From Comamonadaceae bacterium (GTDB lineage Bacteria > Pseudomonadota > Gammaproteobacteria > Burkholderiales > Burkholderiaceae_C), in contig JAIXOX010000057.1 of the NCBI GenBank assembly GCA_027486555.1, positions 1 to 45,514 on the forward strand: a DNA stretch of 45,514 bases, in the 5' to 3' direction. Positions 19,008-39,677 of this stretch are shown here, in pieces. A program made the translations under genes and the position numbers. A model generated the notes under the pieces. That model had not been told where the DNA came from and searched no databases. It was given only the letters and a program-made list of their open reading frames with translations. Each line of letters begins with the position of its first letter. The first letter of the stretch is position 1.

Positions 19008-19073
19008 TTTTTACAACGGACGGATTGGCTTGCCGGTCGCTTAGCCCGTAATCATCACTTTAAGGAGGTGACC

Positions 19074-19382
19074 ATGTCTTTTTGGCAAATATTGGGTCGA
19101 TTCGCCGTGTCCGACAAGGGCGAGACCCTGCAGAAGATCTCGGATACCACCAGCGTTGCATCCGACGGCAAGACGTACACAAGGATGGGGTCGACCACCG
19201 TTGGGTCGGATGGGTCCATCTTCACCCAGATGGGTAGCTTCAGCACCGACGGCAGCACCCGAATGGGAAGTACTGCAACCGGAATTGGAGCCGTTTTCAA
19301 CGAGCGTGATGAGTGGTCGAATTCAGGATCGGGGGCTTCAAATGCTCAAAAAAGGTTTGGTCACGATGATGATTCGTGGTGA
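19074..19382 (+). CDS. Small Gly/Ser/Thr repeat protein of unknown function
   Basis: This 102-aa protein has a near-perfect ribosome binding site, AAGGAGG at 19062-19068, five bases before the ATG at 19074; a GTG at 19068 would overlap that site. The middle is a short repeat: YTRMGSTTVGSDGS, IFTQMGSFSTDGS, TRMGSTATG, that is T-x-M-G-S-x-x-x-x-D-G-S repeated about every 13 residues. The C-terminus is polar (FGHDDDSW). Similar short repeat proteins exist in many proteobacteria without known function. It is divergent from the BREX regulator and 24 bp upstream of the DUF3293 gene. Confidence 0.6.
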   Translation: MSFWQILGRFAVSDKGETLQKISDTTSVASDGKTYTRMGSTTVGSDGSIFTQMGSFSTDGSTRMGSTATGIGAVFNERDEWSNSGSGASNAQKRFGHDDDSW

Positions 19383-19406
19383 CTATTTGATGTGGGGTGA
19401 ATTGTC

Positions 19407-19835
19407 TTGTTCAGTGAATCATTAATTTCGCCGGAAACAATCCAGGCATACCGGGAGACGGAATTTCGCGTTGATTCCGATACGCCACTGACCCTGCGCA
19501 TTGCGGAGCCAAACGACGGCCTATTTGGTTTGTTCAAAGCCAACCGCAGCGATACTTGCGCCTTTGTCACGGCGTGCAATCCACTGGGTCAGCTGTTGGG
19601 CGAATCTGAAAATGCCCAGTTGCATGACCAGTTGGCACACGAGCTGCGTTTCAGGAGCCTGAGTTTCATACATGGGGAGGGCAAACATCCGGTAGGTGAC
19701 TGGCCAGGTGAGCCGAGCTTTTTGATATTTGGGCTGTCCTTGGAGGCCGCCAGATCTCTTGGCAAGAGGTTTGAACAAAACGCGATTGTTTGGTGCGGAC
19801 CAGATGCGATCCCACAATTGGTATTGCTGAGGTAG
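19407..19835 (+). CDS. DUF3293 family protein
   Basis: This 142-aa protein matches DUF3293 in its ordered features: AYRETEFRV near the start, FVTACNPLGQ at about 52-61, ENAQLHDQLAHEL, the G-x-W-x-GEPSFLIFGL block near 98-110, and GKRFEQNAIVWCG near the end. The function of the family is unknown. The start is a TTG at 19407 with GGGGTGA seven bases upstream; no ATG or GTG in frame lies nearby, so the call of the exact start is uncertain. It may be co-transcribed with the small repeat protein. It converges on the second WYL gene with a 13-bp gap. Confidence 0.75.
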   Translation: MFSESLISPETIQAYRETEFRVDSDTPLTLRIAEPNDGLFGLFKANRSDTCAFVTACNPLGQLLGESENAQLHDQLAHELRFRSLSFIHGEGKHPVGDWPGEPSFLIFGLSLEAARSLGKRFEQNAIVWCGPDAIPQLVLLR

Positions 19836-20882: not shown

Positions 20883-20903
20883 AAGCGACAGACTGTGTCG
20901 CTT
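20883..20903. promoter_or_regulatory. Operator copy 1 (inverted repeat) for the divergent WYL regulator
   Basis: Half-sites AAGCGACA (20883-20890) and TGTCGCTT (20896-20903) form a perfect 8-bp inverted repeat around a 5-bp spacer. It lies 24 bp upstream of the WYL start codon, where a bound protein would block its transcription. Confidence 0.75.
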
Positions 20904-20951: not shown

Positions 20952-20972
20952 AAACGACATGATCTGTCGCTT
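20952..20972. promoter_or_regulatory. Operator copy 2 (inverted repeat) for the divergent WYL regulator
   Basis: Half-sites AAACGACA (20952-20959) and TGTCGCTT (20965-20972) repeat the first operator with the same 5-bp spacer and one mismatch. The two centres are 69 bp apart. This copy lies about 170 bp before the first gene of the rightward operon and overlaps a possible -35 (TTGCCG, 20971-20976). Confidence 0.75.
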
Positions 20973-21141: not shown

Positions 21142-21870
21142 ATGGCCTCCACTGTGCAAAACCCCAAAGATGTGGTCTGTGAGTTGCCATCACAGGTCAT
21201 TTGTCTCGGTGAAGCACTGCCGCCGGTCATTAAAACCGTCAGACTAGAGATGGCCCGCAAGGTCCGATCATCTGGTTTGGAGTTTGAGGCGATTGCCGAC
21301 CTTTCAAGTCATATGGGCGTGATCACCAGTGCACTAACCCATTTTTCGCCCCGAATTGTGGGGTTGATGAAGGATGTAATCCGCAACGAAGCTGCGGGGC
21401 TGGCAGAGGCCAATCGCGCTGCTGGAAGACTCGAGCAAGTGCTGTCTGAGTTTGTGGAAGGCTACCAAGCGGCCAAGGCGGCTCATGCGGTGGACACAGA
21501 TTCAAGGGAGGCTCGCTTTTTGCTTCTTGGTGTGTATCGCCATCATGTCAGGGTGATCTGTGACTGGTTGGACGATCTCGTTCACGCCATAAACAACCCC
21601 ATAGCTGCGCTAGACAAGCAAGCGATCCCAGTGACATCCAACGTCATGTTGACGATTGCCTTGAACATGACCAGTCCACCAGAGATGGCCAAGTTGGATG
21701 CGCTGGCAAAGAGGCTGAGGCAGAAGTCTGAGCCATCTATAGAAGCAGCCCCCACACAGCCCCCACGTGATGCCCCAATAAACAACAGTCCTGGAATTCT
21801 CGGGACCATTGGCGCATTGGCGTTTGGCGTTGGACTCACCAATGCGGTCTTTGGGAGGCACAACCGGTGA
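21142..21870 (+). CDS. Unknown protein with C-terminal hydrophobic segment, first gene of the ankyrin operon
   Basis: This 242-aa protein is not recognised. Residues 1-190 look mostly helical, with a segment of alternating charged and hydrophobic residues (about 25-150) and the pattern LLLGVYRHHVRVICDWLDDLV near 128-148. A Pro-rich linker (about 198-212, PTQPPRDAP) leads to a C-terminal Gly-rich hydrophobic stretch, GILGTIGALAFGVGLTNAVF (218-237), with a basic end. That could be a membrane anchor or insertion segment. No clear ribosome binding site precedes the ATG. The stop overlaps the next ORF as GTGA. Being first under the twin operators suggests a role as sensor or effector of the operon, but nothing in the sequence proves this. 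Confidence 0.7.
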   Translation: MASTVQNPKDVVCELPSQVICLGEALPPVIKTVRLEMARKVRSSGLEFEAIADLSSHMGVITSALTHFSPRIVGLMKDVIRNEAAGLAEANRAAGRLEQVLSEFVEGYQAAKAAHAVDTDSREARFLLLGVYRHHVRVICDWLDDLVHAINNPIAALDKQAIPVTSNVMLTIALNMTSPPEMAKLDALAKRLRQKSEPSIEAAPTQPPRDAPINNSPGILGTIGALAFGVGLTNAVFGRHNR

Positions 21871-22052
21871 GCAGCAAAAAAATGCACTCGATTTTTGCCT
21901 GCACCTCGTCGGAAAATGACCGCTTTGAGTGCGATAGAAGCTGGCCGCTCAACTCGCGGCTCAAATGTGAGGCGACAGACGTCATACACCTGTCAATTGA
22001 TGAGGCTACAAGAGTGTTGAAGCTGGCTAATCAGCACCAGTCAATAAAATAA
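21867..22052 (+). CDS. Small ORF (61 aa) of unknown function
   Basis: A GTG start overlaps the stop of the preceding gene (GTGA at 21867-21870), and the stop is 15 bp before the ankyrin gene, so it fits the operon exactly. The sequence is polar with three cysteines (IFACTSSENDRFECDRSW...LKCEATD) and a helical C-terminus. No family is recognised. It could also be a chance open frame in an intergenic space. Confidence 0.4.
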   Translation: MSSKKMHSIFACTSSENDRFECDRSWPLNSRLKCEATDVIHLSIDEATRVLKLANQHQSIK

Positions 22053-22067
22053 CATAAGGAATTGATC

Positions 22068-25000
22068 ATGCTTTTCGGACTTTTTGGGGGTGAAAAGAAG
22101 CGAGTGGCCGAAACGATTGCGGCAGCTCGAACGGGAGATATTGAAAAAGTAAAGCAACTCTTATCCAAGGGTGTAGACATCAATGCGCCCGAGCCCGAGT
22201 CCGGCGACACGCCCTTACTTGCCGCCATCGACAAAGGCCAATGGGCGACAGCCGAATACTTGTTGAAGCAGCGACCCGACCTGAACCTGGAAGACAAGAA
22301 CGGCAACTCACCGCTATACCTAGCGGTGTCACGCGGCGACTCGGCGTTGGCGATGGTCAACCTGCTGCTGGAGGCAGGTGCTCCCGTGGAGCTTGGCCCG
22401 AAGCATGGTGACAACGTGGGTGCGACACCGCTCCACATTGCTTGTGCGACGGGCGCCAACGGGTGTCTGGAAAGCCTGCTACGTCATCGTGCGTCGGCCA
22501 CAAAGCAACTTCCAAGCGGCGCGACCCCCTTGCATACGGCAGCCATTGGCGGCGATCAGCGGACGATTGAACTGCTGTGTAAGGCAGGTGGCAGCGTGAC
22601 CGCGCTCAACGAAGACAAGCGCACGCCTCTTCACAACTGTGGCATCACTGGCAACGCCAAGGCGGCTGTTGCATTGATTCAGCAGGGTGCGCCTGTCGAG
22701 GGGGCGGACGCCGAGGGATGCACGCCGCTCATGCGCGCAGTCATGAAGAACCATGCCGAAGTCGCAAAGGTTCTCCTTGACCATGGCGCCAATCCGGATG
22801 TCGTCGTCCGCACGGACAGCACGTCGTTGTACCCGCTCTTCGTCGCTGCCATGAATGGCTACGACGACGTTGTCCGAGTCCTGCTGGACAAGGGCGCCAA
22901 CGTCACCGCCAAAGTCGACGGTGTTCCGTCGCCGTTGGACGCCGCTAAGCACAACGGCCATGAGGCTGCAGCGAAACTGATCGCAGCAGCAGTGAAGAAA
23001 AAGAAGGCTGCGGAAAAGGAGGCCTCAACTGCTGCGAAGGACTCGGAAGGCCTTTGGCAACGAGTGGTCCAAGCAGTCGCACAAAAGGACCAAGATGGTT
23101 TGCGAACCTTGATCAACGGAAAGGCGTTTGCTTCGTTGTCTGTTGACTCTAGGTTGCTGGCCGTATGTGCACTTGGCGACGCAAAAATTGCTCGCGATAT
23201 GCTCCAAGCTGGCGCAGATCCGAACAAGCCATGCAAGGAGGGATTTGACGGTGTGACCCCGCTCGTCATGACGGTCGGAGTCTCTCGAAGTGTGGAAGTC
23301 GCGTCACTGCTGATTGATGCGGGCGCAAATGTCAACGAAGAATGGAGTCAAGACACCACTCCGATCTTCGAGACAACTGCCGACCAGTTCTACGACCTCG
23401 CCAAACTCTTGCTAGACCGAGGCGCAAAGGTCAATGTGCGCATGAGCAATGGACTGACGCCTCTCATGTACGCGGCACGCAATGGCGCTTCACGATGTGT
23501 AGATCTCTTCTTGGACGCTGGTGCGGACATCAATGCGGTGGAGGAGGAGCACGGTGTGGGAGCTTTTGGGCTGGCACTCAATCGGCTTGATCTACCACTG
23601 GCCGAGCATCTACTTACGCGAGGGGCCGCACCCAACTTTGGTTCGATTGAAACCTTGCCCCTTGCGATTGCTGAACATGGCACTCTGGCCTTCATACAAG
23701 CGCTGGCGGAACGGGGCTGCAAGTTGGTCCGCGAGGACCAACGTGGTCGCATGGCATTCGTGTCTGCACGGAACCCGGATCCCGAAGTGTTCGATTACCT
23801 GCTCAACCAAGGAGCTGATCCAAGCGAAGGTAACGACTTCGCCTATACGCCGCTCATACTCGCGGCTCTCAACAATCACCATCATCTGATCCGCCGCTAT
23901 CTGGCCCGGGGAGATGATGCGACTGTGCGCGATGTCGATGGTGAGACTGCCTTGTCACTGGCTATTGAAAAGCGCCATGAGGAATCAGTCGCAGTCTTGC
24001 GCGAATTCCATGCCGAAGAAGGCGACTACTCGGCACTTGACCCCGAAGCAGCCATGCTGAAGGCCGCAGAGGAAGGAGCGATCGGATCGATCCTCAATCT
24101 GAGAGATGCTGGCGTTCCTATCAACTGTTGCGATGGCGAAGGCAACTCAGCTCTCATGATCGCTGTGCGGGCTGGTCATCAAGGCGTCGTTCGCAGCTTG
24201 TATCACCTCGGTGCCGACGTCAATCATCTGAACCTTGCCGGGGAAACTGCTCTGGCACTCGCGAAGGCATCGGACTCCTCCGACATTGTCAACACCTTGC
24301 AGGAGTTTGGTGCGCTGGATGCGACGACGGGCGAACTAGGTAAGCTCTCTGCCATGTTTGGTGGCATTCCAATCTATAACGCTGCGGACACCATGTTCGG
24401 CAGGATGTCGCATCCCTATAAGGACAAGCCTCCCTACGACAACGAGACGGCAGATGACGAAGATGATCAAGACATCGATGAATCTGGTGTAGGCGCATCC
24501 ATTGATTTGAAGCTTGACCTATTGGGCCAGGTCCTTGAGCGCGATCAGCTCAAAGATCAGTTGCCAGAGGCGGTGCTGGAGCAATTGACACATAAGCTAG
24601 ATCACTGGCGCAGCCTGCATGAAGAGTCTGAGTTGGACGATGACGATCTTGCGGAGCTGAATCGGTTGCTGGGCCTATTCGGTCTCGGCGAAAAGGAAGA
24701 GGCGGAGGAGGTCGAACGAACGCCTATGTTTGAGGCGGTACATGCCCAAGATCTTGCAGCTCTCAGAAAGATCATCAAGGGTGGCGGCGACGTTAACGAA
24801 GTCGATGATGAGGGAAATACGCCCCTGCTTATTGCCGTTTTGACACGCCAGGCAAAGCTTGTCGATGAGCTCTTGAAACTTGGTGCTGACCCCAATAAGT
24901 CCAGACCAGACGGCAAGGGGCCTTTGTTTGGAGCTGTTCGAGTTGCTGAAGAGAAAATCACCCAGACTTTGCTCAAGGGCGGGGCTGAGGTCGACGCTCC

Positions 25001-27626
25001 CCTGAGCATGGATCACAACGGGATCGCGGTGGGCGGCTGTACCGCTTTGTACGTCGCAGCACTTTTGGGACACCTCCCATCCTGCAAAGTTCTGGCGAGC
25101 AGCGGCGCATCACTTGAAGCGACCAATGACCTCGGGTACACGCCATTGATGGCAGCAATTGAAGGTGATCACGAAGATGTGATCGACTTCTTCTTGAAGA
25201 GTGGCGCGAATGTCAATCCCGAGGTCATCGCCACGATGGAGGTGGAAGGGCTTGGGGGTTCTTCTCCACTCTACACGGCAACCCGGAAAGAGAATCTCGC
25301 GGTCATCAAGAAGCTGCTGAAACGGGGAGTCGATGTAAACCGGCGCACACCAAACGGATGGACACCGCTGAAGAGCGCCGCACAGCAAGGTTGTCTTGAG
25401 ATCGGCAAGGCGCTTCTCGAGGCTGGTGCAGATCCCAACATCGCAGACGATACCAACTACACCCCGCTGATGAACGCCGTCAGCGGTGAGCATGAAGATA
25501 TCGTCAAGATTCTGCTGAAGTTCAATGCGGACCCAAACATTCAAAGCGGGGAGAACCCTGAGGACGATGACTGGGAACCCGGGCGAAGTGCACTCATGGA
25601 TGCAGCCGTAAGCGGCAATATCGCGATCGCTCGCGAGCTGCTTAAGGGTGGAGCCAATCCAAATCTAGTGAACTCGAAAGGGCGCACAGCCCTTCACTCT
25701 GCAGTCATTTCGGCGAGCACTGAAATGGTGGCCTTGCTGCTGAAATCCGGCGCGAATCCCAATGTCTTTGGTAACGGCGAAGAGAAAATGTCCGCACTTG
25801 ATTTGGCTTTGCGCCGATGGGCAAGCGAGGATGAAGACGATCGCGAAGGCGGCATTTCCGATGTACTTGAATTGATGTTGAAGAAAGGGATGCCAAGCGA
25901 TCGCGGCTCCCTGAATGAGACTGCCTTGGACTTGGTGACAGAGGGGCATCTTGAACTAGTGGATCTGCTTAAGAAGCAGGGTGTTTTGGTAGATCCGAAC
26001 TACTCCAAGAACGGCGCAAGTCAGCTATTCATTACTGCCGCCGTCGGCGACGACCGACTTCAGGCAGCGGAGCTACTTCTCAAGATTGGTGCGGATGCTA
26101 ATTACAAGAGCCCAGCAGGGCTGTCCGTGCTCTCGCTGGCCGCTCGTAACGGAGCTGTGCGGCTGTCTGAGTTGCTGTTGAAGGCGGGCGCTAATGTCAT
26201 GGATCGCAATAGCGCCAACGCACTTGCCTACGACCTAGCGGTCATTTACGGGCACGATGAGCTGATTGAACTTCTGATTGCGCACATGAATCAGGTCGCG
26301 CCAGTTGTAGACCAGCAGGCCGAGGACGGCACCACTGCCCTGATGCGGGCAACCATGGCGGCAGATGTCAAGTCGGTCAAGGCTCTGCTTGCGGCAGGTA
26401 CTGATGCCAGCAGACGCGATCGACAGGGCGAGTCACCGCTGTCGTATGCAGTGACACACGATCTTGACGAGGTTGTCCAACTTCTTCGAGCGGCTGGCGT
26501 TGAGCGACTTCCTAGCGACAAGGGCGTCGGTCACGAGTCGATTGTTCACGCGGGAAGTCAGGGGGCTCTCGGAACTATCCTTGACCTGCTTGATTCTGGG
26601 GCTCCGATTGACGCTATCGATGCAGACGGAGATACGGCTCTTACCGCCGCGGCCGTCCATCCTGGTGTGGTCAAGGTGCTTGCGAAGCGTGGAGCGGATG
26701 TGTCGCATCGAAATAACGAAGGTAAGACGGCGTACATGATCGCGGCCGCTTCAAATCGCATCCGGATGATGCAGGCTCTCAAAGAGGCGGGCTCGCCCAT
26801 CGATGAGCCAGAGGAGCTGGAGGGTCTGACGCAAATGCATGCCATGCTCAACGCGATGAAGGCAAAGACATCGGATGGCGATACTTCAGAGAACGATGGT
26901 GAATCAGATATTGAAGTGAATGGCAACGAGTTGTTGATGGCTTGCCTGACGGGTGATGCCTTGACCGTCTCAAGGCAAGTCGCTGCTGGCGTCGACGTCA
27001 ACTACGTGAACGACGAGGGTCGTACTGCGCTAGCAATGGCGATACAGGGGCTGATGCAAGACGAAGTTAGCAGACGAAGGGAGCGGGGCTTCGAGCAAAT
27101 ACTTGACGCATTGCTTGTGGCGGGTGCTGACCCGAAGGTTGGTGAGTTCCCATATCTGGTTTTCGCTGCAATGGGTAAGCGACTTCATCTCGTGAACGCT
27201 CTGATTCGTGCTGGCGCGTCCGTTGATCGAACTATCGGTGAAGGGCAGACGGCTCTCTTCATGTCCCTCTTGGCTCCCGATGCTGGCCGTACGGCCGATG
27301 ACCGCTGTGCTTTGGCGCTGCTGAACGCCGGGGCTGATTCATCATTGAGACATGAATCAGGAGCTATGCCTATCCACCTTGCTGCGGCCAGCAACTACCT
27401 AGGCGCTCTTCAAGCCCTACTTGACCATCGGCCGCAGGACGTTGATGCCAAGACCAATATCGGTATCACCCCACTGATGATGGCCGCCACAGAAGGGCAT
27501 GCAGAAGCAGTGCGCTTGCTGTTGAAGTTTGGCGCTGACCGCACCCTCAAAGACGATGAGGGTCTGACGGCCAAGGAGGTAGCTATCAGGAACGGAAATG
27601 ATCAGATCATTCCGTTGCTTGGATGA
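22068..27626 (+). CDS. Giant ankyrin-repeat protein
   Basis: This 1852-aa protein consists almost entirely of ankyrin repeats; I count about 48 units of the form G-x-T-P-L-x-x-A...G-x-x-x-x-V-x-x-L-L-x-x-G-A-D-x-N by eye. Three non-repeat linkers break the array: a Lys/Ala-rich helix near residue 310-340, an acidic linker near 780-890 (ETADDEDDQDIDE, EEAEEVE), and another near 1590-1625. No enzymatic domain, signal peptide or membrane segment is seen; the short start MLFGLFGGEKKR is followed directly by repeats. Ankyrin arrays bind proteins, so a sensor, scaffold or inhibitor role is likely. The ATG at 22068 has AAGGA at 22056-22060. It ends 24 bp before the HEPN-like gene. Such a long intact array is rare in free-living bacteria. 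Confidence 0.9.
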   Translation: MLFGLFGGEKKRVAETIAAARTGDIEKVKQLLSKGVDINAPEPESGDTPLLAAIDKGQWATAEYLLKQRPDLNLEDKNGNSPLYLAVSRGDSALAMVNLLLEAGAPVELGPKHGDNVGATPLHIACATGANGCLESLLRHRASATKQLPSGATPLHTAAIGGDQRTIELLCKAGGSVTALNEDKRTPLHNCGITGNAKAAVALIQQGAPVEGADAEGCTPLMRAVMKNHAEVAKVLLDHGANPDVVVRTDSTSLYPLFVAAMNGYDDVVRVLLDKGANVTAKVDGVPSPLDAAKHNGHEAAAKLIAAAVKKKKAAEKEASTAAKDSEGLWQRVVQAVAQKDQDGLRTLINGKAFASLSVDSRLLAVCALGDAKIARDMLQAGADPNKPCKEGFDGVTPLVMTVGVSRSVEVASLLIDAGANVNEEWSQDTTPIFETTADQFYDLAKLLLDRGAKVNVRMSNGLTPLMYAARNGASRCVDLFLDAGADINAVEEEHGVGAFGLALNRLDLPLAEHLLTRGAAPNFGSIETLPLAIAEHGTLAFIQALAERGCKLVREDQRGRMAFVSARNPDPEVFDYLLNQGADPSEGNDFAYTPLILAALNNHHHLIRRYLARGDDATVRDVDGETALSLAIEKRHEESVAVLREFHAEEGDYSALDPEAAMLKAAEEGAIGSILNLRDAGVPINCCDGEGNSALMIAVRAGHQGVVRSLYHLGADVNHLNLAGETALALAKASDSSDIVNTLQEFGALDATTGELGKLSAMFGGIPIYNAADTMFGRMSHPYKDKPPYDNETADDEDDQDIDESGVGASIDLKLDLLGQVLERDQLKDQLPEAVLEQLTHKLDHWRSLHEESELDDDDLAELNRLLGLFGLGEKEEAEEVERTPMFEAVHAQDLAALRKIIKGGGDVNEVDDEGNTPLLIAVLTRQAKLVDELLKLGADPNKSRPDGKGPLFGAVRVAEEKITQTLLKGGAEVDAPLSMDHNGIAVGGCTALYVAALLGHLPSCKVLASSGASLEATNDLGYTPLMAAIEGDHEDVIDFFLKSGANVNPEVIATMEVEGLGGSSPLYTATRKENLAVIKKLLKRGVDVNRRTPNGWTPLKSAAQQGCLEIGKALLEAGADPNIADDTNYTPLMNAVSGEHEDIVKILLKFNADPNIQSGENPEDDDWEPGRSALMDAAVSGNIAIARELLKGGANPNLVNSKGRTALHSAVISASTEMVALLLKSGANPNVFGNGEEKMSALDLALRRWASEDEDDREGGISDVLELMLKKGMPSDRGSLNETALDLVTEGHLELVDLLKKQGVLVDPNYSKNGASQLFITAAVGDDRLQAAELLLKIGADANYKSPAGLSVLSLAARNGAVRLSELLLKAGANVMDRNSANALAYDLAVIYGHDELIELLIAHMNQVAPVVDQQAEDGTTALMRATMAADVKSVKALLAAGTDASRRDRQGESPLSYAVTHDLDEVVQLLRAAGVERLPSDKGVGHESIVHAGSQGALGTILDLLDSGAPIDAIDADGDTALTAAAVHPGVVKVLAKRGADVSHRNNEGKTAYMIAAASNRIRMMQALKEAGSPIDEPEELEGLTQMHAMLNAMKAKTSDGDTSENDGESDIEVNGNELLMACLTGDALTVSRQVAAGVDVNYVNDEGRTALAMAIQGLMQDEVSRRRERGFEQILDALLVAGADPKVGEFPYLVFAAMGKRLHLVNALIRAGASVDRTIGEGQTALFMSLLAPDAGRTADDRCALALLNAGADSSLRHESGAMPIHLAAASNYLGALQALLDHRPQDVDAKTNIGITPLMMAATEGHAEAVRLLLKFGADRTLKDDEGLTAKEVAIRNGNDQIIPLLG

Positions 27627-27650
27627 CGCGTGCCGAGCCAGGAGAACGAG

Positions 27651-28310
27651 GTGGTTGAAACTGCTCAGCCGACCATCGACGCGCCGGGCTGGACGGTGTG
27701 GCTGAGTGGCAACGGACTCATTGCTGCGAAGTTGGATGGCGCTGATCGAGAGCGCCGAGACGCCTATTTCTTGGCTCTGCATGCATCGACAGAGACGCTA
27801 TTTCGACAAGTCTTGTTCATCGGCTTTCGACTGAATAGAGTGCCGTACAAGGATGCGCAGGCTTGGCTGCATCACCATGATGTCACTCCCGATCGGGAGA
27901 AGTACCCGAAAAGATTTGATCGCCTGTACGCTGTGAAGGACGTCTCGTGGGATTCGCTGGTTGCTGGCAATCGGAGGCTCAGCAGAGCACTGGACCTCTG
28001 GCACGACTACAGCAAGCTGATCCGAAACCACTTGGCACACGGAGTCCGACGCTACTCGCCGGAATGGGTGGATTGCGCCATAAGCATCGATCAGATTCTG
28101 CTAATGGAGCTTGAGCGGTCCATGGTGCCGGTCGTGGGCGGAAGCGTCGCGCACAGTCTGAAGGATCTCGTACCTCGCCTTCCTGTCGGTAAATCGGGGC
28201 GAAATTTGGCAGATCTCATGGGAGTCAAGTCAAAAACTGCACGCCCAGTGATTGCACTGGTCGCCGCTCAGACTGCGGTATCGGCGTTGATGCAGGGGCC
28301 AGAGACATGA
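27651..28310 (+). CDS. HEPN-like protein with R-x4-H motif
   Basis: This 219-aa, mainly helical protein has the motif RNHLAHG, with R125 and H130 forming the R-x4-H signature of HEPN ribonucleases; the preceding polar residue N126 also fits. The helix before it (ALDLWHDYSKLI) and the earlier ALHASTETLFRQVLF are consistent with the helical HEPN bundle. HEPN toxins cut RNA and are frequent effectors in anti-phage systems. The start is set at the GTG at 27651 with AGGAG six bases upstream; a GTG at 27630 would add seven residues. The stop overlaps the YhaO-like ATG as ATGA. A non-nuclease HEPN-type role is possible; the assignment rests on motif and helix pattern only. Confidence 0.6.
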   Translation: MVETAQPTIDAPGWTVWLSGNGLIAAKLDGADRERRDAYFLALHASTETLFRQVLFIGFRLNRVPYKDAQAWLHHHDVTPDREKYPKRFDRLYAVKDVSWDSLVAGNRRLSRALDLWHDYSKLIRNHLAHGVRRYSPEWVDCAISIDQILLMELERSMVPVVGGSVAHSLKDLVPRLPVGKSGRNLADLMGVKSKTARPVIALVAAQTAVSALMQGPET

Positions 28311-29590
28311 AATTCATCCACACCGCAGACCTCCATCTGGACAGTCCCCTGAGAGGCCTGTCTGCTTACGCCGACGCGCCCGCTGAACGCCTGCGAACTG
28401 CGACCCGGGACGCTTTCCACAACTTGGTCACCCAAGCCATCGACGAGCAAGTCGATTTCATGGTGATCGCCGGTGACGTTTACGACGGGGACTGGAAGGA
28501 CTTCAACACAGGGTTGTTCTTCGTCCGCCAGATGGGCCGGCTCCGACACGCGGGAATACCGGTCTACCTGCTATACGGTAACCACGATGCCGACAGCGAG
28601 ATGACGCGCGGCCTGGAACTGCCGGACAACGTCTACGTCTTCTCATCCCGGAAAGCCGAGACCTTTCGCATCGAAGACAAAAAGGTCGCTCTGCACGGAC
28701 GCAGCTTCAAAGTGGCTGCGACCACCGAGAATCTGTTGCCGACCTACCCAGAGCCGGAGATCGGCTGGCTGAACATTGGCGTCCTGCACACAGCGCTCGA
28801 AGGCAACGCCGAGCACGCCAAGTACGCCCCTTGCTCCGTGGCCGAACTGCAGGCCAAGGGCTACCAGTACTGGGCGCTCGGTCACGTCCACGAACACTGG
28901 ATGCAGCGGGGAGATGTGACGATCGCCTACCCTGGCAACTTGCAGGGCCGTCACATTCGAGAACTGGGTGCGCGCGGCGCGCTCCTGGTCAGCGCGGAAG
29001 GCGGTGAGATCACCGAAGTCGATCGGCTGGAAGTTGATGTGTTGCGGTGGCATGCGCTGGAAGTGGACATCAGTGAGCTCAGTGATCGCCGAGGTGCCAT
29101 CCGTGCTGCGGGCCTGGCTCTGGAGCGAGCTCTAGATGCGACCCCGGCCCACCTGCCCTTGGCCGTCCGGGTGCTGTTCACAGGGAGATCTGCCGCACAT
29201 ATGGCCTTGGTCGCCGATGAAGGGCAACTCCGCCAGGAAGTTGTCGCTCAGGCCGTTGCGTTAGATCCCGAACGGGTGTGGATCGAGAAGGTCCGTGTGG
29301 CCAGCGAGGCTCTGACTACGGAGCAATTGCCGTATAACTACGAAACACAAGAATCCCTGGCCGATCTGGCAGGCCTGACGTTGGTGGCCAAGGACGACCC
29401 CGACTTCGTCCAGTCGTTGCAGGCCGACTGGTTGGGTCTGCTGGAGAAGTTGCCGCACGAGGTCTTGCAGGCTTCACCCGAATTGCAAGCGCTGCGACAA
29501 GACCCGCTCGCACAAGTGCCAGACCGGCTTCGGCAAGCAGCTCCCTTGCTGATGGGCCGTGTGGTCCAGAGCGCAGATTCTTCTTCTTGA
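28307..29590 (+). CDS. YhaO/SbcD-like metallophosphoesterase (DNA exonuclease)
   Basis: This 427-aa protein carries all motifs of the Mre11/SbcD calcineurin-like fold: D8 and H10 in HTADLHLD, D57 in AGDVYDG, N92-H93 in GNHD, H161 in GVLHTALEG and H193/H195 in GHVHEHW. The length and the C-terminal part agree with YhaO, the partner of the SMC-like ATPase YhaN, rather than with SbcD itself. Such pairs process DNA ends or cleave DNA with ATP. It overlaps the HEPN-like gene by ATGA and is followed after 16 bp by the YhaN-like gene. The first codons are part of a 29-bp direct repeat whose other copy lies after yhaN. In this operon it is the likely nuclease component. Confidence 0.9.
   Translation: MKFIHTADLHLDSPLRGLSAYADAPAERLRTATRDAFHNLVTQAIDEQVDFMVIAGDVYDGDWKDFNTGLFFVRQMGRLRHAGIPVYLLYGNHDADSEMTRGLELPDNVYVFSSRKAETFRIEDKKVALHGRSFKVAATTENLLPTYPEPEIGWLNIGVLHTALEGNAEHAKYAPCSVAELQAKGYQYWALGHVHEHWMQRGDVTIAYPGNLQGRHIRELGARGALLVSAEGGEITEVDRLEVDVLRWHALEVDISELSDRRGAIRAAGLALERALDATPAHLPLAVRVLFTGRSAAHMALVADEGQLRQEVVAQAVALDPERVWIEKVRVASEALTTEQLPYNYETQESLADLAGLTLVAKDDPDFVQSLQADWLGLLEKLPHEVLQASPELQALRQDPLAQVPDRLRQAAPLLMGRVVQSADSSS
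28314..28342 (+). repeat. Direct repeat copy 1, within the 5' end of the YhaO-like gene
   Basis: This 29-bp stretch encodes I-H-T-A-D-L-H-L-D and matches 33095-33123 at 27 of 29 positions. The pair brackets the YhaO/YhaN genes at a distance of 4781 bp. Confidence 0.85.
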
Positions 29591-29606
29591 GCGCGAGAGG
29601 TCACCC

Positions 29607-32600
29607 ATGCGCATCCGCGAACTCAAGCTAATTCGATACGGGAAGTTCACCGACCGATCCTTGGAACTTCCCCTCAAGGAGCGAGACATCCACCTCATCG
29701 TCGGCCCCAACGAGGCTGGCAAATCGACTGTGCGTACCGCCATCGGAGATTGGCTCTTTGGCATTCCGATGCGCACGCCCTTGGCTTTCCTGCACCCGAT
29801 GCCCGAGTTGCGCATCGGAGGCGTGATTGAACGGCGGGGCGCTGGATCCGTGAATGGAGAGCAGCTCGCCTTCGACCGCACCAAAGGCAACAAGAACACA
29901 CTTCGTACCCCCGAGGGTGCGCCCTTGCCGGATGGTGTCCTTCAATCGTGGCTTGGCAGCCTTCAAGCGCACTCGTTCAACCGGATGTATGCCCTGGATC
30001 ACACGACTTTGGTCGAAGGTGGTGCCGGGATCCTGTCGGCCTCGGACGATATCGGCCGCATGCTTTTTCAGTCAGCTTCAGGCGTTGAGCACTTGGGTGA
30101 TGCCCTACAAAAGCTACAGGCGGAAGCAGACGCGTTGTGGGCTCCTCGAAAGTCCGGTACGCGTGCGTACTACCAGGCGCTCGAAGCCTACGAAGCTGCG
30201 CACGCCGAATTCAAGCGATCAACGCTGCGCACCAAGGACTGGAAGGCGCAACACGATGCGCTGACCGCCACAGAAGCGCAGTTGGCCGAGGCCAAGGGTC
30301 GGGATGTCGAGCTTCGACAGCAACTCAGTCGTCTTGAGCGCATCCGTCGAGTCCGGCCTCTGCTTTTGGTGCTGGATGCCACCCGAGCCCAACGAGTCGA
30401 ACTGTTGGCAGCCGGTGACATCCCTCTTCTGGAGGAGACTACTGCTCAGGTTTTTGCTCGTACGACGCAGGACATTGCGCTGGCGGATGCAGACATCTCA
30501 AGGTTACAGCGGGATGTCGATGAGACGGAAGCCAGTTTGTCGGCAACGATTGTCGACAAAAACATTCTGGCGCTGCAAGAAGACATCACAGAATTCAACG
30601 AACGTCGTCTGCAGTTCCGGACCCACCGCACAGACATGGTCAAGCGAGCGGAAGAGATCCGCCTAGAGTGGGTTCGCACGCAGGAATTAGCACGTAGTCT
30701 TGATTGGCCTGCAGACAGCGAAGACGGTGTGCGCCAACGCTTGCCGGCCACCCCGTTGCGCGTGCGACTGGCCTCGTTGATCAAGGAGCGTGCTGCGCTG
30801 GCGCTGGATCTGAAGAACGCGCGAACCAGCCTGTCCGAACGCCAGGAGCAGATCCAACAGGGCGAAGCGGAGTTGTCGCAGCTCCAGGCTGGCGCTGTCG
30901 ATCCGGAGCTGGAATCGACGGTCGAGCAGGCCATGAAGTTGGGCGATCACGAGAAGGTGATGGCGGATTTGCAGAATGAGATCGATGGGTTGACACAAAG
31001 GATTGAGGATGCGTTGGCTGCACTGGGTGCCTGGCACCGGCCGCTGGAGTCGTTGCGTGCGATGTTGGTGCCAGACACAGCTCACATTCAAAGCCTGATC
31101 GATCACCACCGCGCAAACGCAGCCGAAGAGAAAACGTATCGCGATGCGCTGGATGCAAAGGCCAAAGAGGTCGCGCAACAAGAGCTTGACCTGCAGCAGT
31201 TCGTTCGCAACTTCCAACCAGTTTCGCGAGAGCAAGTCCTGGAGGCACGTAGTGCTCGTGATGTGTCCTGGCAGGGAATCAAGCAAGCTCCCCAGGCCTT
31301 GTTGGATCGGTCAGCAGGATTCGAAGCGCAGATCTCCGAAGCAGACAAGCTCGCCGACGACCGTCTGGACCGCGCCCAGTACGAAGCTGATCGCCAATCC
31401 AAGACCGATGCCCTGGAGCACAGGCAACGGGAGCATCTGGACCTCGATCGTCGCCTGCAAGCTGTCAAGAGCCGAATGGAAGAACGCATTGCTCAGTGGG
31501 ATGCGTTGGCGACTGCTTGTGGCCTGCCCGCCTTGCCATTGGATATGGCGCTCAGCTGGCTTCAATTACGCACGGACGTGCTGGATCTGGTCAGAGAAGG
31601 ATCGGCCGCCGAGCGGCGCCGTTCGGTGCAGCTAGCAGCGGCGGCGAAGATCCGAGACAGTCTATGGAGTCAACTGGGTCATGATGCAGCGGAGTCACAC
31701 GCACCGAAACTCAGCGTGTGTCTGCGAGAGGCACGCGCTCTGATTACGCAAGCAGACCAGGAGCAGGGGCAACGCAAGACGCTGGAGAAGCAGATACGTG
31801 AAGGACAACGCAGCCTAGGCAAGCTGCAGGACGCACTTCAAGCTGCTCAGGAAGCTTGGGACGCATGGATGCAGTCCTGGCAGGTGGCAGTGCAATCCGT
31901 GGGCTACGGTGCGGATACGCCTGTCGATCAGGTGGATGCGGAGATCGACGTGATGCAGGACGTTGAGCGCCTGTTGGACCGTATCCGCAGTATTCGCAGC
32001 GAGCGGCTTGAAACGATGCAGGCCGATCTCGACGGCCTGGCAGCAACCGCTACAAGCCTAATCGCGCGGGTGGCGCCAGACTTGGCAGATCAATCGCCTG
32101 AGGACACTTCTCTGGAGCTAGCCCGACGCCTGGACCTTGCGCAGAAGGATGAGGCATCATCGAACGATTTGTTGGCTCGCTTGCACCGTAGCCAGGCTGA
32201 GTTGACTGAAGCCCAGAAGCGCCTGCAAGCGGTGCACGCCCGACTGGCCCCATTGATGGCAGCCGCAGGTGTGGAGGAGGTGACGGCCCTTGGACGAGCC
32301 ATTGAACGATCCGACCAACGTCGGGCAGTTGAGCGCAAAATTCAGTCTGCCGAGCAGGATTTGACACAGGCAGCGGACGGCCTGCCATTGGAAGTCCTGC
32401 GAAGGGAAAGCGAAAGCTTCGGAGCTGATGAGCTCAAGGCTGAGCTCGATCGTTTGGTTCCGGCTTCGCGCGACGTGGTGGACCAGATCGCATCGCTCAG
32501 CAACGATTTCGGTGCACAGAAGGTCGCCTTTGATGCCCTGGACGGGACCGATCAGGCGGCCCGAGCAGAGGCGCAGCGGCAGGAGGCGATTGCTGCCATG

Positions 32601-33089
32601 GCGGACGCCGCAGAGCGCTACCTGCGGCTGCAGACTGCTGCGCGACTTCTGAAGTGGTCAATCGAGAAGTTCCGCGAGACCAAGCAGGGTCCCATGCTGT
32701 CCAAGGCATCCGCCATCTTCAATGGGCTGACGATGGACTCCTTCGCGAGATTGCTAGTGGATTCCGAGGGCGATACCCCACTTCTGTTCGGTATCCGACC
32801 CAGCGGCGAGCAAGTCGATGTCACCGGAATGAGCGAGGGCTCGCGAGACCAGCTCTATCTGGCACTTCGCTTGGCCGCGCTCGAACTTCAGATCGACCAG
32901 GGCGTCAGCATGCCGCTCATAACTGACGACCTGTTCATCAACTTTGATGACCATCGGACAGCGGCGGGACTGAAGGTCCTGGGCGACCTGTCGCTCAACA
33001 TGCAGGTTGTCTTTCTTACCCACCACGACCATCTTGTGCCACTGGCAAAGGAGGTTCTTGGTGCCGACTTGAATGTTGTATACCTATGA
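29607..33089 (+). CDS. YhaN/SbcC-like SMC-family ATPase
   Basis: This 1160-aa protein starts MRIRELKLIRYGKF and has the P-loop GPNEAGKST (33-41) typical of YhaN. After it comes a YhaN-specific N-terminal domain to about residue 200, then a very long coiled-coil part (about 200-1020), and a C-terminal head with the ABC signature SEGSRDQLYLALR (about 1075-1087), Walker B-like LITDDLFINFDD (about 1105-1116) and THHDH (about 1137). It should form an ATP-driven complex with the YhaO-like nuclease. The start at 29607 has GAGAGG upstream; a longer frame from 29559 overlaps yhaO and has no such site. No zinc hook C-x-x-C is evident in the coiled coil, as expected for YhaN-like rather than SbcC/Rad50 proteins. 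The stop overlaps a possible ATG of the next gene. Confidence 0.92.
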   Translation: MRIRELKLIRYGKFTDRSLELPLKERDIHLIVGPNEAGKSTVRTAIGDWLFGIPMRTPLAFLHPMPELRIGGVIERRGAGSVNGEQLAFDRTKGNKNTLRTPEGAPLPDGVLQSWLGSLQAHSFNRMYALDHTTLVEGGAGILSASDDIGRMLFQSASGVEHLGDALQKLQAEADALWAPRKSGTRAYYQALEAYEAAHAEFKRSTLRTKDWKAQHDALTATEAQLAEAKGRDVELRQQLSRLERIRRVRPLLLVLDATRAQRVELLAAGDIPLLEETTAQVFARTTQDIALADADISRLQRDVDETEASLSATIVDKNILALQEDITEFNERRLQFRTHRTDMVKRAEEIRLEWVRTQELARSLDWPADSEDGVRQRLPATPLRVRLASLIKERAALALDLKNARTSLSERQEQIQQGEAELSQLQAGAVDPELESTVEQAMKLGDHEKVMADLQNEIDGLTQRIEDALAALGAWHRPLESLRAMLVPDTAHIQSLIDHHRANAAEEKTYRDALDAKAKEVAQQELDLQQFVRNFQPVSREQVLEARSARDVSWQGIKQAPQALLDRSAGFEAQISEADKLADDRLDRAQYEADRQSKTDALEHRQREHLDLDRRLQAVKSRMEERIAQWDALATACGLPALPLDMALSWLQLRTDVLDLVREGSAAERRRSVQLAAAAKIRDSLWSQLGHDAAESHAPKLSVCLREARALITQADQEQGQRKTLEKQIREGQRSLGKLQDALQAAQEAWDAWMQSWQVAVQSVGYGADTPVDQVDAEIDVMQDVERLLDRIRSIRSERLETMQADLDGLAATATSLIARVAPDLADQSPEDTSLELARRLDLAQKDEASSNDLLARLHRSQAELTEAQKRLQAVHARLAPLMAAAGVEEVTALGRAIERSDQRRAVERKIQSAEQDLTQAADGLPLEVLRRESESFGADELKAELDRLVPASRDVVDQIASLSNDFGAQKVAFDALDGTDQAARAEAQRQEAIAAMADAAERYLRLQTAARLLKWSIEKFRETKQGPMLSKASAIFNGLTMDSFARLLVDSEGDTPLLFGIRPSGEQVDVTGMSEGSRDQLYLALRLAALELQIDQGVSMPLITDDLFINFDDHRTAAGLKVLGDLSLNMQVVFLTHHDHLVPLAKEVLGADLNVVYL

Positions 33090-33094
33090 ATGGG

Positions 33095-33123
33095 TCATCC
33101 ATACCGCAGACCTCCATCTTGAC
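33095..33123 (+). repeat. Direct repeat copy 2: fossil of a YhaO/SbcD N-terminus
   Basis: The sequence matches 28314-28342 at 27 of 29 positions. In frame it reads V-I-H-T-A-D-L-H-L-D and is followed at once by TGA (33124-33126). It is therefore a remnant of the start of a second YhaO-like gene, in a different frame from the next gene. Confidence 0.8.
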
Positions 33124-33151
33124 TGAATTTCCAACTATTAAGGAGACGACT

Positions 33152-34444
33152 GTGGGATTGAAAAACGAAACGGGTGATGTTCCTTGCGAACTGGTTGATG
33201 TCATATCTAAATCAAATGACGCCGGTTTGGCGGCAAAATTTCTGTTCGGTTCCACACCACGAAGCTTTGCAGAGACCACAAAATTTTGGAACTCACCAAG
33301 TTACATCATCCTTGAACAGTTGGTATCAAGGGACCCAAGTACACACCTTCAATGGGCGCGTGAACTGGGATATGCAGGAGCAGTGCCTTCTGGAAGTGAT
33401 TCGGAGAAAATCAAGGCCATCATCGACGAATGGGTCGGTAGTATTGTTGAACGTGTAGATGACCTTTGGAATGGTCATGTACCTAATTCGGGTCCTGTTA
33501 AATCAGTTCAGGGTGAACTGCTGTACGCAATGAAAAATATTGAACATGCGTGTAACAGTGACGACAATAGGTTTGATGATTATCTGAATGGTTTGAAAGA
33601 CTTTATTTACAACAAGATAGTCAAAAGCAAGCTTCCCTACCTTGTGCAAAAGGTTTTTGTTAATGATGTATCTGAATTGACTTCGTCTTTGCCTGGTAGC
33701 GGGTCGAAGCAAAGTTCTGAGTATTTCGAGTCACTGATTCCAACTAAATATTCGACCCGGTTGACCAGATTGTGGGTCGTGGTTCTCAGTTGGATATTGA
33801 CGCATGAAAAACCTATCAAATATTCTGGTGAGGTTGAGCAGGAGTTTTGCATTTCATCAAGCCCTCAAGAGATATACAGGCCAAAGCGGCGTAAAGCAAA
33901 AATGCCAAGGCTGGATGAGTATGCGCAATGGGCGGTTGATCTTGGACTTGAAAAAGAAAGTTTCAAAGGCCTAGCGAAAAAATCTGAGGTGCATTCCCAC
34001 GTTGACGAATGGATCTCAAAGCTATCGCTCGAAAAAAATCAACTATGGAAAGAACTTGTTCCTGAGAGTGGAGACGCTTCAACTTTACAAGGCGAATTGA
34101 TCCGGGCTGAAGGTCGTCTTTCGAGTGAACTGTTCCGAAACGGTATGATGAATTGGGACGCCTACTACGCAGGGCTACTCAGGCTGATTGGGGTGACCTT
34201 GGGAAGTTATAGCGGCTTTTCTGAACGCGTCAGGAAAGGACTGTCGGAAGACATTGCCGAAGTTGAGCGGGCAGGGAAAATAGGGGAAGCAGCGGCAAGA
34301 GGTGAACGGGCCGGGTTTGAGGTGTTGGGCGAAAGTTTTTTTGTGGAATCAGACGCTGAGAAAGCATTGAACCGTTTGTCTGCGCTTATCGTCGTTTGGG
34401 TTCGAAATCATCCTGAACCTATTCCATACAAGCCACGGGATTGA
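33152..34444 (+). CDS. Unknown protein with internal duplication, AT-richer than the operon
   Basis: This 430-aa protein is not recognised by name. It contains two copies of one domain: first around residues 85-180 (IDEWVGSI...LWNGHVPNSG...VQGELLYAM...DYLNGL), second around 290-400 (VDEWISKL...LWKELVPESG...LQGELIRAE...WDAYYAGLL). The shared core is D-E-W...L-W...V-P-x-S-G...Q-G-E-L. The start is placed at GTG 33152 with AAGGAG six bases upstream. A longer frame from ATG 33086 overlaps the yhaN stop but runs through the fossil repeat, so those 22 residues are doubtful. Base composition is clearly more AT-rich than in yhaO/yhaN, pointing to a separate origin. It could be an immunity, regulatory or accessory protein. 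Confidence 0.7.
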   Translation: MGLKNETGDVPCELVDVISKSNDAGLAAKFLFGSTPRSFAETTKFWNSPSYIILEQLVSRDPSTHLQWARELGYAGAVPSGSDSEKIKAIIDEWVGSIVERVDDLWNGHVPNSGPVKSVQGELLYAMKNIEHACNSDDNRFDDYLNGLKDFIYNKIVKSKLPYLVQKVFVNDVSELTSSLPGSGSKQSSEYFESLIPTKYSTRLTRLWVVVLSWILTHEKPIKYSGEVEQEFCISSSPQEIYRPKRRKAKMPRLDEYAQWAVDLGLEKESFKGLAKKSEVHSHVDEWISKLSLEKNQLWKELVPESGDASTLQGELIRAEGRLSSELFRNGMMNWDAYYAGLLRLIGVTLGSYSGFSERVRKGLSEDIAEVERAGKIGEAAARGERAGFEVLGESFFVESDAEKALNRLSALIVVWVRNHPEPIPYKPRD

Positions 34445-34755: not shown

Positions 34756-36171
34756 CTACCTATCAGATACGGAAACTGGTCGGCCGACCGTCAAAGCGTA
34801 GATGTTGGTCTGACGCCCACGCGTACCCCGCATGCGAGGTTCGAGTTGAACCGTGATTTGAGGTGGTGATGCCAGCAGCAGCCTTTCGATGGCTGCATCG
34901 ATGGTGGACTTGGATGCATGCCCCTGAAAACATTCGCTGGTGATTTGCCACCGGGTTGCCGTCCCCTTATCCCGCAGAAAATCCACAATTTTCTTGACCG
35001 CCGCCGTGGTTCGATCCGAGTCTGCTGCGTCAGTGGCTTTGACGAATACGAATTTGGCAGACTCGACGCCATGGCGAATCCAACCCATGGCGGCCTGGAT
35101 ATGTTGCACGTCAATCTGCGTTTGAAGATCGCACAGGGCAAAAATCATGGCCAAGCGAAGCAACATGGGTGCGCGGCGTTCCAGCAAAGCCGTCACACGC
35201 TCACCAGCACTGTCGTCGATCAGCTCCCCGCGATACAACTGCGAGTAGAGGCCCTGGGCCTGTGCAGTCAGTTCAATCCGCATGTGATCGCGCTCCGTGA
35301 CCCGTTCGGCTTGGACAAAATCCAGAACGCCAAGCATTCTGGCTGCCAATGTGTCCACCGTTTCCTGTGGCGTTGCTTTGGGAAACGGCACCACTTTTTC
35401 CCTCTCAGCCCAAAGCATCAAGAATCGGTTGGCAAAGCCGTTCGTCAGTTCACGCGCGCGCATCAACCCCAAGAGCTCACTGGGAGAAATCGCCCCACTC
35501 AAACACAGGTGGGGATGGCTTGCATACAGGCGATTAGATTTGGTGGCTGGTTTGAGGCAAACGCCATCCCAGCAGTCTCGCAGTGCCGCCGACAAGGTGT
35601 TGCCCTCACGGCGTCCCTGGTGCAGAACATTGGCAAATTCTGACTCGACGACCCACAATCGCTTGTCCAGAATGGCAGGAACTTCCAGCTTGCCCTGTTT
35701 GTAGCCGTCATGAAACAGGCAGACCAACCCCTCCCGGCTGGAGAGTCCGCCCCGGTGGATGGGTGGTGCCGCAGTTTCCCGAAGTTGACGCAGTGCCGTA
35801 TCCAGGCGGTTGACCAGTGAGACCGCATCCCCCTTGCGGCCACGACCAGACCGGCCTATGTGCAGGATAAACAGCCGCGCATGGTGCCAGGTGTTGCCAA
35901 CCGGTAGGTACGGTCCACGGCCGATGGCGCACGACAGGTATGCCATGAAATTGGCCGCTATCGCATAGGGGTTGGCTTCCGTGCCTTCACTGCCTGCTCC
36001 AGCCACATCGCCAACCAAGCCATACAGGCAGACAGGATCTGGCTGCGGTGCATTTCGATGGGTATCGGACGAGTCGTCATCGACATGGTGCTCGCCGGAC
36101 GATGGATGGGCAAAGGCTGCGCCATGTAGGCCACGCGCTGCTGGCGAATGAAAAAAATCGCTGCTGGGCAT
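34756..36171 (-). CDS. DUF3987 domain protein (YfjI-like) of the recombinase element
   Basis: This 471-aa protein matches DUF3987, a helicase/primase-like family of phages and mobile elements. Recognisable blocks are NPYAIAANFMAYLSCAIGRGPYLPV (as a pattern N-P...F-x-A-x-L-S-x-x-I-G-R), LFILHIGRSGRGRKG around 100-114 in the place of the P-loop, SSREGLV, and the LSGAISPSELL...ELTNGFANRFLMLW block around 225-255. The P-loop is unusual (GRSGRGRKGDAV), lacking a clean G-x4-G-K-S/T, but this variant is frequent in the family with one Lys. A C-terminal winged helix is likely at 395-450. It is the last gene of the module, 4 bp after the first ParB-like gene, and its start codon ATG is preceded by no strong site. 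Confidence 0.8.
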   Translation of the reverse strand: MPSSDFFHSPAARGLHGAAFAHPSSGEHHVDDDSSDTHRNAPQPDPVCLYGLVGDVAGAGSEGTEANPYAIAANFMAYLSCAIGRGPYLPVGNTWHHARLFILHIGRSGRGRKGDAVSLVNRLDTALRQLRETAAPPIHRGGLSSREGLVCLFHDGYKQGKLEVPAILDKRLWVVESEFANVLHQGRREGNTLSAALRDCWDGVCLKPATKSNRLYASHPHLCLSGAISPSELLGLMRARELTNGFANRFLMLWAEREKVVPFPKATPQETVDTLAARMLGVLDFVQAERVTERDHMRIELTAQAQGLYSQLYRGELIDDSAGERVTALLERRAPMLLRLAMIFALCDLQTQIDVQHIQAAMGWIRHGVESAKFVFVKATDAADSDRTTAAVKKIVDFLRDKGTATRWQITSECFQGHASKSTIDAAIERLLLASPPQITVQLEPRMRGTRGRQTNIYALTVGRPVSVSDR

Positions 36172-36175
36172 TCAT

Positions 36176-37057: not shown

Positions 37058-37058
37058 A

Positions 37059-39517: not shown

Positions 39518-39677
39518 AGCACCCGATCGTTCAACGTGTGTATTGAGTGCTCTCGGGCCTGCGTTTCACTTCACCGCAAGCCATGGCGCTGACGGTTGTC
39601 AGCGTTGACTTACCGGTGAGGCGGTTGCCATGCAGGTGTTCGGGAGCTTATTTGGACGCAACGGTAATGCCAGCGGG

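Follow-up and report, generated by a model that had tools for sequence, protein, structure and literature searches.

A WYL-associated operon with a constant TailA-ankyrin front end and exchangeable cassettes, a candidate anti-phage conflict locus between BREX and Thoeris genes

Several described systems share parts with the locus presented in this study. In the accessible portion of its description, Lamassu pairs a Rad50-like ATPase with a variable effector (PMC10586767). Among WYL-domain regulators, as far as the consulted parts of the two reports go, BrxR sites are 11-bp inverted repeats with a 5-bp spacer that occur as two boxes (PMC9122601), and CapW binds palindromes of 19 to 24 bp over the -10 region (PMC9122588). 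The HEPN motif is defined, in the available text of its source, as Rx4-6H with a polar residue after the arginine and an Ex3[KR] motif upstream (PMC3710099). The DNA analyzed here, 45,514 nucleotides of a Comamonadaceae bacterium (contig JAIXOX010000057.1; hereafter the window), forms contig 21 in a genome of 150 contigs and 3.83 Mb. It carries an operon, spanning from TailA (21142) to Orf6 (34444), that encodes TailA, which ends in a hydrophobic segment, a giant ankyrin protein (Ank), a HEPN-like protein, the Mre11/Rad50-type pair YhaO/YhaN and Orf6, all on the plus strand; a gene for a WYL-domain regulator is divergent from it. Judging from sequence comparison, we consider it about an even prospect that this is a WYL-controlled conflict operon, probably anti-phage, in which a membrane-tethered ankyrin hub would serve exchangeable effectors.

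TailA (21142..21870) has 242 residues, and Ank runs from ATG 22068 to 27626 (1,852 residues), with ankyrin models of Pfam matching along its length. The constant N-terminal part of Ank, approximately 316 residues (22068..23015), has 80 to 93% protein identity to its relatives in L001, L002, L003, L004, L005 (299 residues) and L011 (153 residues). The variable ankyrin solenoid follows (23016..27626), of which the last approximately 70 residues are common to the window, L004 and L005; the length of Ank ranges from 842 to 1,860 residues in six loci. The comparison covers 12 full TailA loci, i.e., the window, L001, L002, L003, L004, L005, L011, L078, L102, L103, L104 and L107. L006 is a TailA fragment and was left out; L104 was included although its TailA contains an in-frame TAG and may be broken. 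L001 and L002, being almost identical, amount to little more than one witness. Some loci also bear other labels (L080 = L002 = G766; L076 = L004 = G768; the L005 genome is G342 and the L107 genome is G1165). TailA together with the first approximately 316 residues of Ank is common to 7 of the 12 loci, L011 being readable over 153 residues only.

Two types of cassette stand behind this front end. In the window, L004 and L005, the order Ank, YhaO, YhaN is the same, and YhaO-YhaN are 90 to 95% identical. The slot before yhaO holds the HEPN-like gene in the window and L005 (same position, 47% identity), and genes for a 141-residue protein and a weakly DUF1963-like protein in L004. The slot behind YhaN holds Orf6 in the window, a WGR-DUF4246 gene in L004 and a DUF1963 gene in L005. 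The 141-residue protein was considered as a proven homolog of the HEPN-like protein and rejected as such, with an hhalign probability of 0.3% and an RDTVAH motif only. The alternative cassette, found in L001, L002, L003 and the remnant L006, carries 198-residue and 236-residue proteins of no assigned family, followed by an ATP-dependent DNA ligase in L002, L003 and L006; the L001 contig ends within the gene for the 236-residue protein. The long tail of this ligase cassette is readable only in L003 with L077, where two proteins with sub-threshold SLATT matches and TIR_2, LigA-WGR-BRCT, WGR-LRV, AAA_5 ATPase (read as MoxR-type), DUF2201 metallopeptidase/VWA-like and Ank-LRV proteins are encoded on one strand. 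TIR and SLATT domains are known from immune systems. The joining of one constant front end to two kinds of cassette at the TailA loci argues for the conflict-operon reading.

The window itself looks like a natural recombinant on the evidence of nucleotide identity. In 100-bp bins, it is approximately 95% identical to G766 from 18,900 through TailA to approximately 22,170; the identity is then 69 to 79% up to 23,000, beyond which there is no clear similarity. The identity to G768 is 50 to 75% up to 22,100 and approximately 90% thereafter. By BLAST, the matches to G768 span 22066-27608 (87.5%) and 28304-33089 (90.5%), and the similarity to G766 reaches into the BREX genes. The switch at approximately 22,170 sits in the 5' end of ank, leaves the reading frame unbroken and thus joins, at the window locus, the left half of a ligase-type element to the right half of a YhaO/YhaN-type element. 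The matches to L005 (22068-23019, 27417-27630 and 28305-33066) include the 3' end of ank (27417-27630), which is 85% identical to that in L005, where most of the middle is missing. Because this end is kept though the middle differs, it travels with the cassette. The switch inside ank and the joint passage of its 3' end and the cassette likewise support the reading of a hub with exchangeable effectors.

An earlier note on this DNA had proposed a tightly packed defense operon of five open reading frames (ORFs) ending at 33089, and all five are present, open and intact. The size that it gave for the ankyrin protein was borne out (Pfam Ank_2, E 3e-188), as were R125 and H130 of the HEPN-like protein when counted from the best start, GTG 27651 behind AGGAG. 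D8 and H10 of YhaO belong to a full set of five Mre11-type motifs, and YhaN, called an SMC-like ATPase, contains Walker A, signature and Walker B motifs. Pfam and PADLOC models agree with it on the adjoining WYL regulator and on the position between BREX and Thoeris genes, respectively. The tight packing stands, but the proposed end does not: the genes share one transcription direction with 4-nucleotide ATGA overlaps at HEPN/YhaO and YhaN/Orf6, and the latter overlap extends the operon to 34444. The hydrophobic tail that the note had described is real, but consists of a single C-terminal segment (TailA residues 219 to 237, mean hydropathy 1.75). The ratios of nonsynonymous to synonymous substitution (dN/dS), 0.16 to 0.17 for TailA, 0.09 to 0.12 for Ank, 0.07 to 0.09 for YhaO and 0.15 for YhaN, indicate purifying selection on these four genes; the HEPN-like gene gave no value because silent sites are saturated against the L005 homolog. 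A weak small ORF of 61 residues (21867..22052, plus strand), whose GTG overlaps the TailA stop, may not be a gene; it has 61 open codons in the window, L001 and L002 and 37 in L003. In L004, L005 and L011, a gene for a 105-residue protein separates TailA from Ank, and L078 has one behind TailA; in the window, L001 and L002 the possible 61-residue ORF takes its place.

Rather than one system, the operon could be two neighbors on an island, WYL-TailA-Ank being one and YhaO/YhaN, alone or with a HEPN toxin, the other, which recombination would have put in tandem under one promoter; we regard this as a possible alternative that deserves serious weight. It draws on the distribution of the pair. The genome searches were samples of up to 399 genomes each, and YhaN relatives (E ≤ 1e-20) occur in 27 of 399 family genomes. 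Among the 25 other YhaN genomes, 20 were examined at one place each in stretches of 13 to 20 kb (G370, G039, G324, G065 and G373, as well as a second place in G315, were left out), in a tblastn comparison that also took in 15 control regions. YhaO is present at 19 of these 20 loci, and all 20 lack TailA, the Ank N terminus, the HEPN-like protein, the window-type WYL protein and Orf6 (E 1e-5). The five plasmid loci inspected, from 207 matching plasmid records, all carry YhaO/YhaN without the other operon genes, and on a Methylomonas plasmid the pair directly follows brxL of a BREX system. Moreover, TailA-Ank also joins an unrelated cassette. On the other hand, the ank 3' end common to the YhaO/YhaN loci, the gene order kept in three loci, and the overlapping genes in a single direction speak against mere neighbors. 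Only the window and L005 (a Hydrogenophaga metagenome-assembled genome [MAG]) were found to carry the exact gene set, L004 having other genes in the HEPN slot; the gene set is thus conserved but rare, and YhaO/YhaN are not bound to it. Linkage in other genomes, which the earlier note had proposed as a check, was therefore borne out, but within narrow limits.

The WYL-domain regulator P0007 (19849..20862, minus strand; Pfam WYL E 1.6e-11, WCX E 1.6e-9) is separated from TailA by a gap of 279 bp that contains two operator-like palindromes. The first, AAGCGACA-N5-TGTCGCTT (20883..20903), has no mismatches, and the second, AAACGACA-N5-TGTCGCTT (20952..20972), lies 69 bp after it on the TailA side. 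With up to three mismatches allowed, the pattern matches the window four times (two matches with no mismatch and two with three) versus 0.72 expected, and none of 100 shuffles reaches four; the core pattern occurs at two places in the whole genome, both in this gap. L001, L002, L004, L005 and L011 also have two sites that keep 14 or more of the 16 arm bases and stand 58 to 69 bp apart (exactly 69 bp in L001, L002 and L005), and the spacers differ among the relatives. L003 and L078 each have a single site. In L104 and L107, which have another type of WYL gene, the best matches are only 10/16 and 11/16. Overall, a WYL gene adjoins TailA in 10 of the 12 full loci. The window type is found in eight (window included), always divergent, and is short in L004 (86 residues) and L011 (70 residues); the other type is divergent in L104 and runs in the same direction as TailA in L107. 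With P0007 as the tblastn query, which also misses the WYL gene of L104, none was found near TailA in L102 and L103. As judged from the consulted parts of the BrxR and CapW reports, the WYL gene with palindromes of approximately 20 bp at the promoter region resembles both regulators, and the two boxes are as in BrxR; the pair of conserved sites thus supports the preferred reading, with both palindromes being putative binding sites of P0007. P0007 differs from BrxR and CapW in that it has no match to their solved chains at E 0.01. The WYL protein on the BREX side of the window matches 7qfz, 9c5g, 7tb6, 7tb5 and BrxR 7t8k.

Mre11/SbcD enzymes are defined by five metal-binding motifs, and Rad50-type ATPases by Walker A, signature and Walker B motifs. 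In YhaO (28307..29590; Pfam Metallophos E 2e-14, above cut-off), the motifs DLHLD8, GDVYDGD56, GNHD91, LH160 and GHVH192 are intact; the closest solved relative is Mre11 (1ii7, E 2.6e-9), and the NCBIfam sbcd model scores 59.2 bits, below its cut-off of 77.65. YhaN (29607..33089, best start ATG 29607; Pfam AAA_27 E 4e-73) has 1,160 residues with GPNEAGKST33 (Walker A), MSEGS1075 (signature) and PLITDD1103 (Walker B). It has no CxxC zinc hook, and its only cysteines are C638 and C705. The pair therefore resembles SbcCD/Mre11-Rad50 in joining a metallophosphoesterase to an AAA_27 Rad50-like ATPase with intact motifs, whereas it differs in the missing hook and in its place beside Ank and a HEPN-like gene.

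The HEPN-like protein (27651..28310) has 219 residues. R125-N-H-L-A-H130 is identical in the window and L005 (2/2), and the upstream motif is E48-TLF-R and E48-AVF-R (2/2), the Ex3[KR] pattern being short and common by chance, with further matches in each protein. The Rx4H with asparagine after the arginine and the upstream Ex3R in both family members (E48-x3-R52 in the window) are a likeness to HEPN ribonuclease toxins, from which the protein differs in having no Pfam HEPN match; nor was there an MNT match among the scanned operon proteins. These motif elements, together with the 4-nucleotide overlaps, favor the conflict-operon reading. Relatives were found in the window and G342 among 399 family genomes, and in the own genome only among 369 class genomes. 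A third match, in G161 (E 0.002, 43 residues), is weak and partial and was treated as chance. Plasmid searches with the HEPN-like protein, the 198-residue protein and the ATP-dependent ligase were without useful result, and viral-contig scans with YhaO, the HEPN-like protein and the 236-residue cassette protein revealed no relative.

The slot before yhaO bears on a second, doubtful alternative that is partly compatible with the conflict-operon reading, so that their probabilities overlap: a Lamassu-like arrangement in which YhaN/YhaO would sense phage DNA ends and thereby release the product of the adjacent slot gene, which would be the sole killer. A Rad50-like ATPase beside a variable putative effector slot is indeed the likeness to the accessible description of Lamassu, and the gene before yhaO does vary between the window and L005 on one side and L004 on the other. 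In the Walker B motif, Rad50 has a catalytic glutamate where YhaN has an aspartate, which also fits a sensing role. However, the active site of YhaO is complete and none of the other 25 YhaO/YhaN loci examined has a HEPN homolog nearby; the pair can therefore probably act alone. A simple assignment to Lamassu was rejected, since the LmuA and LmuC models give no match at E 0.1 in the seven proteins scanned. The LmuB model matches YhaN (E 7e-11) over only part of the protein, and YhaN differs from LmuB in its size (1,160 versus approximately 650 residues) and its Mre11-type partner.

Other named systems do not account for the gene set. Ank repeats score against MzaA of the MZA system, but with 373 bits versus a cut-off of 800, and no other Mza model matched the operon proteins; the assignment was rejected. 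The PDC-M72A model gives E 2e-177 over 13 stretches of Ank, a score that any long ankyrin protein may give; none of the other PDC-M72 models matched the operon proteins, and a simple assignment to this system was likewise rejected. Matches of Ank to Dot/Icm effector models are all far under the cut-off and reflect generic repeat similarity, and large plasmid ankyrin genes were discarded as relatives of the system because they have different neighbors (3 of 22 matching records inspected). The ligase cassette of L003 with L077 resembles the MoxR-vWA ternary conflict systems in its AAA_5, DUF2201 VWA-like and TIR_2 proteins and its sub-threshold SLATT matches, whereas the window operon is without a MoxR-vWA cassette. 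Ankyrin and WGR are absent from the main text, as available, of the description of those systems by Kaur et al. in 2020 (PMC7159879). The earlier note knew of no named system with this gene set, and in agreement, the scanned operon proteins matched no model of PADLOC, Pfam or NCBIfam that stands for it. While the individual domains are known, neither their combination nor the cassette exchange was found among the titles and opening abstract lines listed in the literature searched, which was consulted in part (for published systems, PMC8195603, PMC7159879, PMC10586767, PMC9122588, PMC9122601 and PMC3710099) and had most subscription journals and bioRxiv outside its scope.

On the left flank, PADLOC models identify BREX genes for BrxA, BrxB, BrxC, PglX, PglZ and BrxL, accompanied by a WYL gene of their own. 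On the right flank lie a serine recombinase with ParB/RepB genes and, again by PADLOC, the candidate pair PDC-M02A/B and Thoeris ThsA/ThsB. The adjoining BREX and Thoeris genes, and the TIR_2 and sub-threshold SLATT proteins of the ligase cassette, are in line with a conflict function. A DNA repair or stress operon, i.e., an SbcCD-like pair with regulators and no immunity, is improbable: the inspected plasmid records annotate YhaO as a DNA repair exonuclease, and the ligases and WGR domains of the alternative cassette would likewise suit work on DNA ends, but the distribution is rare (TailA in 2 of 399 family genomes, counting the own genome), and the HEPN-like gene, the island between BREX and Thoeris and the mobile neighbors (recombinase, phage lysozyme and, by reading, phage tail genes and an integrase) speak against it.

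Orf6 (33086..34444, 452 residues, overlapping YhaN by 4 nucleotides) contains an internal duplication of a unit of approximately 90 residues (two copies, 31% identical, E 2e-8). Its G+C is 0.454 versus 0.54 to 0.61 in the other operon genes. It has no family in Pfam, PADLOC, NCBIfam or PHROG, and tblastn revealed no homolog in 53 loci. TailA is also without a match in these four collections, and a sequence search of the PDB with TailA and Orf6 gave no match below E 0.28. The possibility that TailA is a known protein of phages or plasmids was rejected, since no match was found in plasmids, phages or PHROGs; a repeat viral-contig scan gave only L011. TailA comes from six GTDB loci (one of them the fragment L006), one IMG/VR contig and L078, the second gene of the L006 genome. 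It was found in 2 of 110 order genomes and in 2/59, 3/81, 1/84 and 2/90 genomes from the genera to which four hits belong, each count including genomes already known from earlier searches. The nearest relatives are from Burkholderiales or Betaproteobacteria, and the hydrophobic C terminus is kept in the distant homologs L102 (32% identity) and L103 (28%) and also in L107.

Side observations at the TailA loci were as follows. At L104, the TailA homolog and WYL gene precede a 103-residue ORF and a nucleotidyltransferase-HEPN gene pair. By reading, L078 has WYL-TailA without Ank, preceded by genes like those of the ligase cassette (AAA_5, DUF2201 VWA-like and Ank-LRV), and adjoins an apparent integrase beside a tRNA-dihydrouridine synthase gene. 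Phage tail genes stand beside the L011 TailA-Ank locus, again by reading, and a Phage_lysozyme gene beside L005. In the window, a mobile module (34756-40097) consists of the serine recombinase, two ParB/RepB-type genes and 471-residue and 139-residue proteins; the L107 TailA contig in G1165 carries 36 to 76% relatives of four of these five genes. In the BREX region, PglX (9649-13215) is only 69% identical to that of G766, compared with 99% for BrxC and 96% for PglZ where it can be read. The stretch 10379-11714 has no DNA match and coincides with a dip in G+C, which would fit an exchange of part of pglX. Two small ORFs between both WYL genes (19068-19835) are 89 to 96% identical in G766. A radical SAM protein (2164-3531) gives weak matches to prokaryotic viperin models (E 2e-14).

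Several observations weigh against the reading of one conflict operon. P0007 has no match to solved WYL chains at E 0.01. The HEPN-like protein has no family in Pfam, PADLOC, NCBIfam or PHROG, and its best PDB chain (E 0.97) is not HEPN. The reversed control of the operator pattern also has two matches genome-wide, so that the core pattern is not rarer and rarity alone proves nothing; the palindromes carry weight because the pair stands 69 bp apart in one gap and recurs in relatives. Since YhaO/YhaN stand alone in all other loci examined, the pair may be a passenger independent of the rest. In L078, L102, L104 and L107, TailA is not accompanied by a constant-type Ank; the L103 contig stops 0.9 kb after TailA. 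All six GTDB TailA loci come from MAGs, and the junction in the window could be an assembly chimera, which is less likely because neither partner is identical to the window. As for the single fixed defense system envisaged earlier, its setting, WYL gene, HEPN motifs and Mre11/Rad50-type pair hold up, but the cassette exchange and the free-standing YhaO/YhaN do not fit it.

If the operon is a conflict system with an ankyrin hub, its predicted mechanism would be the following. The WYL protein would repress the operon until the cell is infected or its DNA damaged. TailA would tether the ankyrin N terminus to the membrane, and the variable solenoid would read a trigger, dock the cassette or both. 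YhaN/YhaO would then engage DNA ends and cut DNA, and the HEPN-like protein would cut RNA, so that phage growth or the cell would be stopped. The same front end would acquire other cassettes when recombination takes place within the constant 5' region of ank. The fuller proposal is an immune platform in which a membrane-tethered TailA-Ank hub under one WYL switch takes up whole effector cassettes of unlike chemistry (an Mre11/Rad50-type nuclease plus a HEPN-type ribonuclease, or DNA ligases plus TIR, SLATT-like, WGR and MoxR-VWA proteins) by exchange inside ank; the C-terminal end of Ank would vary with them and the window locus would be a natural recombinant. It is offered tentatively. Deletion and point mutants could put the idea to the test, given the conserved operator-like sites, the intact active sites and the apparent recombinant. 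If it is true, an immune sensor hub can stay constant while whole weapon sets are swapped by recombination within its gene, and recognition of the cassette by the hub could be read from the ankyrin end.

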